38,217 nt of DNA, taken from assembly GCA_007695245.1 (NCBI GenBank), contig REEE01000241.1:1-38217 (forward strand), in the 5' to 3' direction. The stretch comes from Candidatus Competibacteraceae bacterium (GTDB taxonomy: Bacteria > Pseudomonadota > Gammaproteobacteria > Competibacterales > Competibacteraceae). Position 1 is the stretch's first letter. Each line of letters starts with the position of its first letter. The notes under the pieces were generated by a model that saw only the letters and a program-made list of their open reading frames with translations, was not told the origin of the DNA and searched no databases. Positions 13,099-20,386 of the stretch are shown in pieces. A program made the position numbers and the translations under genes.

Positions 13099-13467
13099 TT
13101 ACTCCGACTCAAAAGCCAAGCCCATGGATTTCGCTATCGTGCCGAGGCGCTTGTCCCGGGTCCACAGCAACACCGTTCCAGTCAGAGCAACCGCTGCCAG
13201 CAGATGGGCATCGATATAGCCGATGCCTTTGCCCATCAAGCCGCGCCGCTCGATGAAGAACAGCACCTCTGCGTCGGTGGCGCGCTGAGCGTTCGGTAAG
13301 TTCCGCAAGAGTGACAAAAACGCTTTACGGTTGGTCAGGTTGCCACACGCCAGTTCGCCGATGATGAACGGATGAATCAGTACCCGATGGGTATCGAGCA
13401 ACTCCACCAGCAACGGTTCGCCCGCGCGCAGGTGGTCGATCCAGACCGAAGTATCGACCAGAATCAT
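13099..13467 (-). CDS. VapC-type PIN-domain toxin ribonuclease
   Basis: A 122-residue PIN-domain protein. Conserved acidic residues that would bind the catalytic Mg2+ are all present: D5 (ILVDTSVWIDH), E38 (IIGELA), D86 (GYIDAHLL) and D105 (WTRDKRL). VapC toxins cleave tRNA or rRNA and stop translation when not bound by their antitoxin. The start overlaps the vapB stop by 4 nt (ATGA). Its own stop lies 2 nt from the 96-bp repeat copy A, so it sits at the very edge of the inserted segment. The toxin appears intact; its RNA target is unknown. Confidence 0.85.
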   Translation of the reverse strand: MILVDTSVWIDHLRAGEPLLVELLDTHRVLIHPFIIGELACGNLTNRKAFLSLLRNLPNAQRATDAEVLFFIERRGLMGKGIGYIDAHLLAAVALTGTVLLWTRDKRLGTIAKSMGLAFESE

Positions 13468-13661
13468 GATGGTTCGGACTGCCTTCTAGGCACCGGTTGC
13501 AGTTGCGGCTCGCTGCCGCCGAGTCGCGCCAGGCGGCGGGCGCTCTCCCGTTCGATCAAAGCCTTCAGGGCCTCTCGAATCAAGGCGGTTTTCTCAGCCA
13601 GTCCGGTCATGTCCCGCGCCTCGGCCAGAAGCTGATCGTCGATATTCAGTGTGGTGCGCAT
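13464..13661 (-). CDS. VapB-type ribbon-helix-helix antitoxin
   Basis: A 65-residue antitoxin. The N-terminus MRTTLNIDDQLLAEARDM is the usual DNA-binding strand-helix of VapB antitoxins of this type, followed by the helix ALIREALKALIERESARRLARLGG that leads to the toxin-neutralising tail. The start at 13661 is chosen over an upstream in-frame codon because MRTTLNID is the family N-terminus. It precedes and overlaps vapC. Antitoxins of this kind usually repress their own promoter as the VapBC complex; I see no clear operator upstream. Confidence 0.85.
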   Translation of the reverse strand: MRTTLNIDDQLLAEARDMTGLAEKTALIREALKALIERESARRLARLGGSEPQLQPVPRRQSEPS

Positions 13662-13841
13662 GGAACGGGCCTCGTCGACGGGGGTAAGCACAAAAATTAT
13701 ACGTCATCCGATGACGATTTTGATGCTCGCGCCGTCCGCGCCCGAGCGTTTTCGCGGAGACGGGGCGATCCGGCGCCTGCCTCTGGGTGGATGGTCGTTC
13801 CGTTCGAGTGATCGGAGCCAACCGAAACAGCGCGTTTTGGA

Positions 13842-15838: not shown

Positions 15839-15964
15839 GGATGGGCATCTCAAGCGTTGGAGCGAACGGCGTGAGTCTGAGGGAGGATGGCGAAGTCGCA
15901 CCATCTCGCAGTGCAGGTAGACAGCGCCGACACCCAGTTCTTTCTCGACGGTTACCAAAAAACT

Positions 15965-15988
15965 CCTCCGGGGGATTTTCCAGTGCTA
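15965..15988. repeat. Diverged copy of the 24-bp inverted-repeat sequence
   Basis: This stretch, with the core ATTTTCCAGTG (15975-15985), matches the left arm of the 121-bp element (16668-16691) at 18 of 24 positions, same orientation. It directly abuts the left end of the truncated IS1380-family element. Confidence 0.55.
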
Positions 15989-15990
15989 GC

Positions 15991-16667
15991 CCGGATTATT
16001 CATAAAAAAGGGCGAACCTCGTTCAACTCATTGATATAATTCGTGTTACGTCAATAACGCTTCGGAGAAGCCAAACGAGATCGCCCATGTCCCAGTCTAC
16101 CCCAGAGCCGTTGCGATTTCCTCCCGTCGCTGGTCTGACCGTGCGCGCCGAGTTCGATGGCGGGGCGCTGTCGTCGGACTTTGGCCCCCTGATTCTACGG
16201 GGCGTCGACCAGCGGATCGGGCTGATCGACCGTCTGGTCCAGGCCGTCGACGACCGGCGTCATCCGTCGTATGTTGCGCACTCCCTGCACGACCTGTTCA
16301 CCCAACGGATTTTTCAGATCGCCTGTGGCTACGCCGACGGCAATGATGCCAATACACTGCGGACTGACCCGCTGTTTAAGCTGGGGGTGAATCGTCATCC
16401 CTTGGTCCAGGCCCTGGACTTGGCCAGCGCCCCCACCTTCTCCCGGCTGGAGAATGCGGTCTCGACCAGAGACCTCTATCGCTTGGCGCGGGCCTTCGTC
16501 GATCAGTTCATCACCAGCTATCCTCAGCCCCCGGCCGCGATCGTGCTGGACTTGGATCATTCCGAGGATCCCACGCACGGACCGCAGGAATTCAGCATCT
16601 ACAATCACTACTACCGCCATCACTGCTACGTGCCGCTGTTGCTCTTTGAGGGCCTCTCGGGAAAATT
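15991..16667 (+). mobile_element. Truncated IS1380-family insertion sequence (left part)
   Basis: The left end is placed at about 15991, where CCGGATTATTCATAAAA resembles IS1380-type termini; the exact end base is uncertain. It contains the transposase 5' half starting at 16087 and breaks off at the 121-bp inverted-repeat element. No matching right terminus is visible, so it is a non-autonomous remnant. Confidence 0.6.
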
Positions 16668-16677
16668 CTTCCTGTAA
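16087..16677 (+). pseudogene. IS1380-family transposase, truncated
   Basis: The N-terminal ~192 residues of an IS1380-family DDE transposase, whose full length is usually 420-450 residues. Seen are the N-terminal region (FDGGALSSDFGPLILRGVDQRIG), the helical part HSLHDLFTQRIFQIACGYADGNDANTLR, and the first catalytic aspartate region IVLDLDHSEDPTHG with YNHYYRHHCYVPLLLFEG. At about 16667 the sequence runs into the inverted-repeat element and stops at TAA (16675-16677), losing the remaining catalytic residues. It cannot be an active transposase by itself. Confidence 0.85.
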
Positions 16678-16788
16678 ATTTTCCAGTGATAAATTTGGGG
16701 TGGTCGCTTCCTTTAGTAGGCTCAGATATGGCCAACACTACAAGTTGTGGTTGCCTGACAAAGGTATCACTGGAAAATTTACAGGAAG
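16668..16788. mobile_element. 121-bp MITE-like element with perfect 24-bp inverted repeats
   Basis: The arms 16668-16691 and 16765-16788 are perfectly complementary over 24 bp, both containing the core ATTTTCCAGTG or its complement, and enclose 73 bp without a usable ORF. It sits exactly at the break of the IS1380 transposase. I see no clear target-site duplication. Size and perfect terminal repeats suggest a MITE or the paired ends of a deleted insertion sequence; a strong RNA hairpin is the alternative role. Confidence 0.65.
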
Positions 16789-16816
16789 TTTAATTTTGAA
16801 ACACTGCGATTTTGGT

Positions 16817-16835
16817 CTGTTTCATTTTGAAACAG
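16817..16835. promoter_or_regulatory. Palindrome CTGTTTCA-TTT-TGAAACAG
   Basis: Perfect 8-bp arms (16817-16824, 16828-16835) surround a 3-bp centre. A half copy, ATTTTGAAACA, occurs at 16793-16803, exactly 31 bp (about three helix turns) before the same 11-mer at 16824-16834. The site lies just beyond the 3' end of prsR. There is no T run for a terminator, so a protein-binding site is possible; no promoter is recognised next to it. Confidence 0.35.
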
Positions 16836-16907: not shown

Positions 16908-18244
<1,337 letters not shown>

Positions 18245-18272
<28 letters not shown>

Positions 18273-20371
18273 GGCTCGGCCTCCCCTGTTTGCAACTCCC
18301 GATCCGTCGCGACCGGAGCCGCGATTCGCGGCAAACGCAAGGTAAACACCGTCCCTTGGCCCGGCGCGCTGACGACCGTCAGCTCGCCTCCCGCCCCCCG
18401 CGCGAACTCGTGACTCTCGTAAACACCGATGCCCATGCCAGCATTCCCCTTGGTGGTCGTGAACGGCCGAAACAATTTCTCGCGGATGAACTTCTCGTCC
18501 ATGCCACAGCCATCGTCGCGGATGGCGGCGACCGCCATCCGATCTTCAGCGCGAACGACGACCTCGACCGCGCCATCGGGACCGGTCGCCTCCTGGGCAT
18601 TCTGAATCAGATGCTCCAGAACCGCGTTCAACCGTTCCTGATCCACCCGCACCCACGGCTCGTCACCCGGCTCGCCGCGCAGCACGGGCGCCGGCCGTCG
18701 AGCGGCGCGGGCCGCGACCGCCTGGCGCGCCGCGACTGCCAACGCCAGCGACCGCACCCGACCCGACACGGGTTCCTTGCGCAACTGCGCCAACAAGCGA
18801 TTCATCCGCTCGGTGGCGTTGGCGACCGTGCGGAAGGCGTCCTCGACAAACGCCGGATTGGCCTTATGGCGGGCGGCATTAGCCCCCACCAGGGCCAGTT
18901 GCGCGGCGATATTCTTGAGATCATGCACCACATAGGCCGACAGGCGATGAAAAGCCTCAAATTGGCGAGACTGCCACAAGGCCTCGCTGGCCTCCAGCAA
19001 CGCCACGTAGCCCGCCACCTGACGGCCCGCCGTCTTGAGCAGGTCGCGGTCTTCCCAGTTGAGTCGCTGGCGGGCGCGCCCCTCGGCCAACACCAAAAAT
19101 CCTCGCAACTCCTCACCGTGTAACAACGGCACCACCAGCCAGGCGCGCGGCAGTTCCAGAAACCAGTCCGGCAGCCGCAGATCGGCATAGACTTCCGGTT
19201 CCTGAACGTACTCGTCCAACTCGATCACCCACTGCCGCTGCTCCAAAAACCGAACCAGCGATCCATCGGCGGGTTCCCGGCGCGCTTCAGGTTCCCGCAG
19301 ATTCCAAGTCGCCTCCAGCACGAAGGCACCCGATTCCCGCCGGGTCCAGAGCAGGCCGCCGGCGCTCTTCACGATTTCGGCGGCGGCGCGGATGGCGCGC
19401 TGCCGCAGCGGCTCGTTGGGTTCGCCCGTCGACAGGGTCTGGGTGAACTTCAACCATTCCTCACGATAGTCGTATTTGAGGTTGAAGAAGTGTTTGTTTA
19501 ACAGCACCAACACCTTGGCGCGCAACTGTCCGGAAAAGAGCAGCACGGCCAACAGCACGCCGGCACCGGCTAGAAAGGCCAGTTGCAGGGCGGTTCCCCA
19601 GCTGCCGCCATAAGCCCGGATGTAGTAGCCCATGCCCGCCATCGCCAAGAGATAAACGCCGGCCCCGAGGATGGCAGCCGAGTGCAGCACGACCTTGCGG
19701 GAGACGAACACGTCCAGCGACCACTCCGGGTTCCGGGCCGCCGCCACGCCGATCAACGGGACCACCATGGCCCCGATCAGGCCGCGCGCCTCCCACATCG
19801 CCGCGTCCAGCCGCTTGAACAACAGGGCGTCGGCGTACAGAAAGAAATCGTAGGCGAACATCAAGCCCAGTCCCAAATACAGGAATTTGGTGGCCCAGCG
19901 TCGCTGCGGGTGCGTGTTGCGGAATAATTGTTCGATCAGCGCCAACCCGGCGATGGCCAAGCCGATGTGCCCCAGAATCGCGGCGTCGGCGGGCGGTTCG
20001 AAGGGCGGACTCCACAACTCGCTCAAGCTGATCCCCAGCAGCAAGACCCCGCAGCCGATCAGCGCCGGGCCGGCCCAGCGCAACCAACGGCCCGCGCCCA
20101 TCTCCCGGACCAGCGGTTCCAGCAGATGCATCAGGAACAGCAGCCACGCCACGTTGCGCGCCACTTCCAGCAGCTGATACAGCCAATCGAGACCCACCGC
20201 CTGAGCGGCGGCGTAATAGGACGCCCGCAAGGCCCACAGCAGGTTGATCAGCACCGCGGCGACCAGCAGCCCCCCCTGCAAGCGACCTCGCCAGCTCGTC
20301 AACAGCAGCAGGAACAGCAGCGCCCAGCCCACCGCCGCCGCGCCGTAACTCAACGCTCCGAGGTTGATCAT
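18245..20371 (-). CDS. prsK: PrsK, PEP-CTERM system sensor histidine kinase
   Basis: A ~708-residue membrane kinase. The N-terminal third has about eight or nine hydrophobic helices (~1-290), followed by a GAF-like domain (~310-465). The dimerisation box YVVHDLKNIAAQ has its phospho-accepting His at about residue 483, and the ATPase domain shows IQNAQEATG (N box), DDGCGMDE and GMGIGVYESHEFARGAGGEL (G boxes). This architecture is that of PrsK, partner of PrsR. I use ATG at 20371; an in-frame GTG at 20380 would add three residues, and neither has a clear ribosome site. The gene follows the sugar transferase by 6-15 nt, so all three form one minus-strand operon. The signal sensed is unknown. Confidence 0.88.
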
Positions 20372-20386
20372 GGTCGCCACGACGCG

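Follow-up and report, generated by a model that had tools for sequence, protein, structure and literature searches.

Within the 38,217 nt of Candidatus Competibacteraceae DNA analysed here (contig REEE01000241.1, hereafter the window), the transposase gene of an IS1380-family insertion sequence (IS) breaks off at a short inverted-repeat unit, raising the questions of what this unit is, by what it is moved and how the IS came to lose its other half. A preliminary description of the locus had reported perfect 24 bp inverted repeats bounding 121 bp (16668..16788, forward strand), and these were confirmed: the left terminal repeat (16668..16691, forward strand) consists of the variable CTTCC, the conserved TGTAAATTTTCCAGTGAT and an A, and the right repeat (16765..16788, reverse strand) is perfectly complementary to it. 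When extended, the arms reach 30 nt with 93% complementarity and are separated by 61 nt. The 17-mer CTGTAAATTTTCCAGTG, allowing up to three mismatches, occurs in the window solely at these two arms (0.01 expected), and DNA folding of the unit indicates a strong hairpin (z = -7.0). It harbours no transposase gene of its own, the two ORFs of at least 50 aa that reach into it both starting in the left half of the IS1380 element.

A search of the same genome with the 121 bp unit found 22 other matching places (E <= 1.3e-7), 72% to 99% identical and in several cases partial, with flanks that differed by eye among the 21 loci compared side by side. The unit is hence short, multicopy and dispersed in unrelated flanks, and it is a Miniature Inverted-repeat Transposable Element (MITE). 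Its interior was not found in 58 other genomes (up to 14 candidates scored per genome), and in the 59-genome search G005 and G025 matched it at the ends alone. The 19-base end, with at most one mismatch, is present in 17 of the 39 family genomes, counting the host's own, against none for the reversed control. When this 19-mer was searched for across 84,980 species, 22 of the 30 stretches recovered belonged to the G005 assembly; the eight others had no paired end in the nearby DNA examined, L092 and L105 lying near its edge, and may be chance matches. Among the MITE copies of G000, G005 and G007 the outermost five bases vary (for example GGAAG, GGAGG and GGAAC; GGACC, GGAGG and GTACC), and the inner TGTAAATTTTCC is conserved. 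Two G007 loci (L137 and L141, on contigs C36 and C68) have a second MITE-like end directly adjoining a complete MITE, as would result from copies inserting into or alongside each other. An end variant, TGTAAATTTTCCCGTGAT, lies 33-56 bases from the ends of G007 contigs C41, C56, C59, C70 and C281, as would be expected if assembly had missed a longer, multicopy IS that ends in this way.

In relatives, the ends of the MITE delimit ISs of 1.5-1.7 kb that surround an ISKra4-related transposase: L045 in G005 (1563 bp, perfect 22 bp ends), L122 in G028 (1682 bp, ends agreeing at 23/24 positions, with the duplication CAAACTTC on both sides) and L123 in G015 (1527 bp, ends agreeing at 21/23, without target duplication). 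In G005, the outer 25 bp of the best MITEs agree with the IS at every position, and 21 bp are common to a G000 MITE copy and the same IS. The transposases of L122 and L123 share 52 and 53% identity with the L045 enzyme, and for all three the best NCBIfam model is ISKra4 (E 1e-26 to 8e-34), although their scores of 94-117 bits are well below the curated NCBI cut-off of 205; by this test they are ISKra4-related, not full members of the family. In each IS, the first ORF, of about 70 aa, and the transposase frame share 13-25 nt at eight consecutive A residues, where a predicted -1 frameshift at A8 or A8G, read from the sequence, would join the two ORFs.

This arrangement resembles that of the ISMich2 group of the ISKra4 family (p-MULT 4, Mutator-like DDE transposases), for which the excerpted text of PMC3942029 gives two ORFs and a -1 frameshift, and for the wider group direct repeats of 8 or 9 bp and inverted ones of 18-39 bp. 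All three parent ISs share the two ORFs with the predicted frameshift, as well as the IS-only organisation; similar direct and inverted repeats are seen in L122 and in the G005 IS, which has 22 bp ends and four exact end pairs, but the direct repeat is lacking in L123. A conserved terminal cytosine marks the ISMich2 group; many of the ends here start with C, though GGTCC, GTTCC and GGTAG ends occur. It is very probable that the MITE has been moved in trans by the transposases of such ISKra4-related, ISMich2-like ISs, which occur in this bacterial family, the copy in the window having inserted into an IS1380 element that later suffered a deletion. The transposase would recognise ends of about 20 bp, copy the element (through a circular intermediate in published p-MULT relatives) and insert it through an 8 bp staggered cut. 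A close transposase was not found in the host's own assembly (93.8% complete, 389 contigs), where the best match is 31% identical. The IS1380 family was rejected as a candidate mobiliser: a comparison by eye shows no relation between its left end (CCCGGATTATTCAT...) and the 24 bp repeats, and the IS1380 is therefore the element that was hit rather than the one that moved the MITE.

Earlier, the unit had been suggested to represent either a MITE family or the terminal repeats of an IS reduced by internal deletion. The multiple copies, together with full-length ISs having such ends in relatives, support that proposal, the unit being neither confined to this locus nor without ISs that share its termini. 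The internal-deletion alternative holds up in the shared ends, but similarity between the MITEs and the three ISs is confined to the terminal 19-33 bases, so that the MITE is not a plain internal deletion of L045, L122 or L123. That it is the direct deletion product of some one full-length IS, with subterminal DNA retained, is quite unlikely; the identity of MITE and IS ends, and the 33 bp that G007 MITEs share with the G028 IS end with one mismatch, would fit such an origin, but G000 and G005 copies resemble the three ISs over 21-25 bp only, implying that the interior derives from elsewhere or from a donor since lost. A terminator, structured RNA or other immobile palindrome might equally form the strong hairpin, yet this is an extremely improbable identity for a multicopy unit with IS ends and target duplications, and all Rfam matches fall far below gathering scores. 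The MITE has the properties listed for bacterial MITEs in the excerpted text of a review (PMC10969869), being short, non-coding, multicopy and bounded by inverted repeats shared with autonomous ISs.

The gene broken at the MITE belongs to the left half of an IS1380-family IS (15986..16667, forward strand; PF13701, 3e-64; transposase domain DDE_Tnp_1_4; 88% DNA identity to L107), of which the right half is missing. The truncated transposase ORF (16087..16677, forward strand) covers PF13701 profile positions 2-182 of 435 and ends just inside the MITE; its match to NF033539, at 7e-47, is below the model's cut-off. Homology to L107, a copy of the same IS1380 in relative G033 with an open transposase frame, spans 15986-16671 (601/686 identical) and stops four bases inside the MITE, which starts at 16668, bearing out the earlier placement of the element exactly where the transposase is cut. 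The view of the break as a simple interruption did not survive, as no IS1380 sequence follows the element, the right flank being unrelated to it, and the locus looks rather like a deletion. Searching the draft genome for the right half of the IS, taken from L107, gave only a 45 bp match of 84% (40 of 82 candidates scored), and thus no reciprocal product could be shown. The 8-mers on either side, GGAAAATT (16660..16667, forward strand), an A+T-rich insertion-site half within IS1380 coding sequence, and TTTAATTT (16789..16796, forward strand), differ at four of eight positions, so this copy has no target duplication; both are A+T-rich, as on average in other copies lacking one. The best and simplest reading of these sequences is a MITE insertion within the transposase gene of the IS1380, followed by a deletion that ended exactly at the right border of the MITE and would have removed the right half of the IS along with the other copy of the target duplication. 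Such a deletion could have arisen through intramolecular (adjacent-deletion) transposition of the MITE, or through recombination with a second MITE to the right; MITEs are described as hotspots for homologous recombination in the excerpted PMC10969869.

Across the family, an 8 bp A+T-rich target duplication, formed by the bases just outside the variable pentamer, occurs without mismatch at 18 of 88 MITE copies and at five IS insertions. By genome, the exact duplications number 1/16 in G000, 10/34 in G007 and 6/20 in G005 (where L170 and L184, which have the same flanks, count as two copies), with 1/18 among further copies of G000, G003, G014, G015 and G023. These counts leave out rows lacking a flank or having single or degenerate ends (L019, L020, L030-L032, L034, L135, L207 and L208), degeneracy meaning more than two changes in the 12 nt core for the set of 70 copies and three for the 18 further ones. 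For the G005 IS, 4/8 left ends have an exact partner among right ends located on other contigs. In 65 of the 88 MITE copies, three or more positions are mismatched between the flanking 8-mers. In the 49 unmatched copies of G000, G007 and G005, the two flanks agree little more than do flanks taken from different copies, over lengths of 3-16, without a clear excess at any other duplication length in that range (the largest being 0.07, at length 16 in G005). The 8-mers adjoining these 49 copies are 72-86% A+T, versus 46-55% in the next eight bases. With median identities of 84-96% among copies, the mismatched flanks cannot be put down to mutation alone. Most copies are therein unlike bacterial MITEs generally, as portrayed in the excerpted review, in lacking matching duplications though both of their flanks resemble halves of an insertion site.

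Few of the flanks that should pair with these half-sites could be located. Exact partner 8-mers were absent among the 28 unmatched ends in G000 and the 46 in G007, the latter sampled from 34 copies with two ends each, where the genome has 103 end matches. Adding IS ends in G005 gave one MITE-IS pair (L181/L035) and five IS-IS pairs, with four same-orientation matches in the control, of which a duplicated stretch contributed two; a single one of the 24 MITE ends there may have its partner at an IS, which does not exceed the control level. Comparison of 20 G007 copies with 398 kb of G026 and 22 other loci, seeking empty sites, met too little synteny, and the four matches comprised the right flank of L153, a 97 bp piece of the right flank of L158, a piece of the left flank of L161 and a MITE-to-MITE match of L154 with L199.

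These results bear on whether the window copy could be an assembly artefact, the contig having been joined through the repeated MITE so that the missing IS1380 half and duplication reflect a chimera. The assembly is a draft of 389 contigs, with a 99% identical copy near a contig end (C352:177-297), and none of the relatives tested has the flanking genes side by side: the HlyD-like gene to the left is present in 15 relatives, in which the DNA upstream differs from the window and mostly between relatives too, and neither prsR nor prsK was found near it by DNA comparison or tblastn within up to 1.6 kb upstream (4 bases for L197, 522 for L200). Chimeric joins should, however, leave the partner flanks elsewhere, and neither the exact 8-mers sought in G000 and G007 nor the right half of IS1380, among the candidates scored, appeared on another contig; moreover, six of seven G023 copies on contigs of 70-126 kb have at least four mismatched bases, and the seventh two. 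An artefact is on balance improbable. We infer, within an incomplete sampling, that events losing the partner, i.e. deletions, are likelier at unmatched copies than reciprocal exchange or chimeric joins, and deletions at these elements may be common.

Tentatively, ISMich2-like elements may routinely delete adjoining DNA, so that most MITE copies would join two unrelated half-sites and the truncated IS1380 would be one such scar, the partner flank being removed by intramolecular transposition or by MITE-MITE recombination with loss of one product. If many copies instead insert without duplicating their target, the absence of a duplication in the window would say nothing about deletion. The 65 copies with at least three mismatches, far beyond what copy divergence predicts, could be accounted for in this way, as could the near absence of partner flanks, which such insertion would never leave. 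Against this, exact 8 bp duplications exist in 18 of the 88 copies and in ISs too, and loss did occur in the window, where the right half of the IS1380 is gone; insertion without duplication is a rather unlikely explanation.

A third repeat, reported at 15965-15988 with 18/24 identity, was found as described (counting by eye), and the core ATTTTCCAGTG said to be shared by the three copies does occur exactly three times in the window, with one further site at 17163 bearing one mismatch. The last three bases (CTA, from 15986) belong to the IS1380 end or its target, leaving CCTCC-GGGGG-ATTTTCCAGTG (15965..15985, forward strand) outside the IS, next to an A+T-rich 8-mer, AAAAAACT (15957..15964, forward strand), that resembles the insertion sites of other copies. 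As all five IS1380 left ends compared in relatives have other flanks, the repeat is flanking sequence and not part of the IS1380 end. It matches MITE ends of the same genome at 17 of 21 positions, a level expected 0.02 times per window in 200 simulated 38 kb windows with the same dinucleotide frequencies, making it more than chance, though much weaker than the two arms. To judge from its sequence, it is probably the decayed end of a second MITE or IS copy. Coincidental resemblance is somewhat unlikely given that expectation, the real copy 0.7 kb away and the adjoining A+T-rich 8-mer, even though its four differences are clustered in a single block (TGTAA to GGGGG), which random decay would seldom produce, and the repeat is single copy in the genome within three mismatches. 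The suggestion that a MITE family hit the same place twice is thus moderately supported, the position outside the IS1380 beside an A+T-rich 8-mer speaking for it and the degeneracy of the repeat against. A history in which an older MITE was split by the IS1380 and then recombined with the inner MITE was rejected; it predicts that AAAAAACT equals TTTAATTT, and these 8-mers differ.

Other features of the neighbourhood were noted. The HlyD-like gene, which adjoins the third repeat, has in G015 a MITE with related ends (L199, G015:C4:20865-20999) about 170 bp upstream; the DNA between that MITE and the gene is unlike the window by eye, so the same insertion is not established. A toxin-antitoxin-like gene pair, VapBC-like by eye, lies at 13105-13727, between an RND pump gene and the HlyD-like gene, and in G016 (L192) such a pair is found beyond the HlyD-like gene, a difference in position showing that the region has also been rearranged. 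On the other side, genes for a PEP-CTERM response regulator (TIGR02915) and the histidine kinase PrsK (TIGR02916) are adjacent at 16908-20380 on the reverse strand. Between the MITE and prsR (16787-16834) are two palindromes of the form TGTTTCA-N3-TGAAACA (0.06 expected), one perfect (16818-16834) and one with two changes (16787-16803), the latter overlapped by the right end of the MITE by two bases. They may serve the PrsK-PrsR/RpoN system as enhancers; excerpts of PMC9850573 mention an enhancer predicted to lie upstream of a PEP-CTERM gene. The G007 copy L140 likewise abuts a TTTCATTTTGAAA site.

The MITE is a real mobile element, a further instance of a familiar and ordinary kind, in which the lack of target duplications at most copies alone might surprise a specialist. 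Judged by titles and the starts of abstracts, no description of MITEs of the ISKra4/ISMich2 group or of Competibacter was found in the literature, and an anonymous small repeat is now tied to an IS group whose miniature derivatives appear, from those same titles and abstract openings, not to have been described. A+T-rich half-sites without matching duplications offer a measurable signature by which the frequency of deletions caused by miniature elements could be tested in uncultured bacteria.
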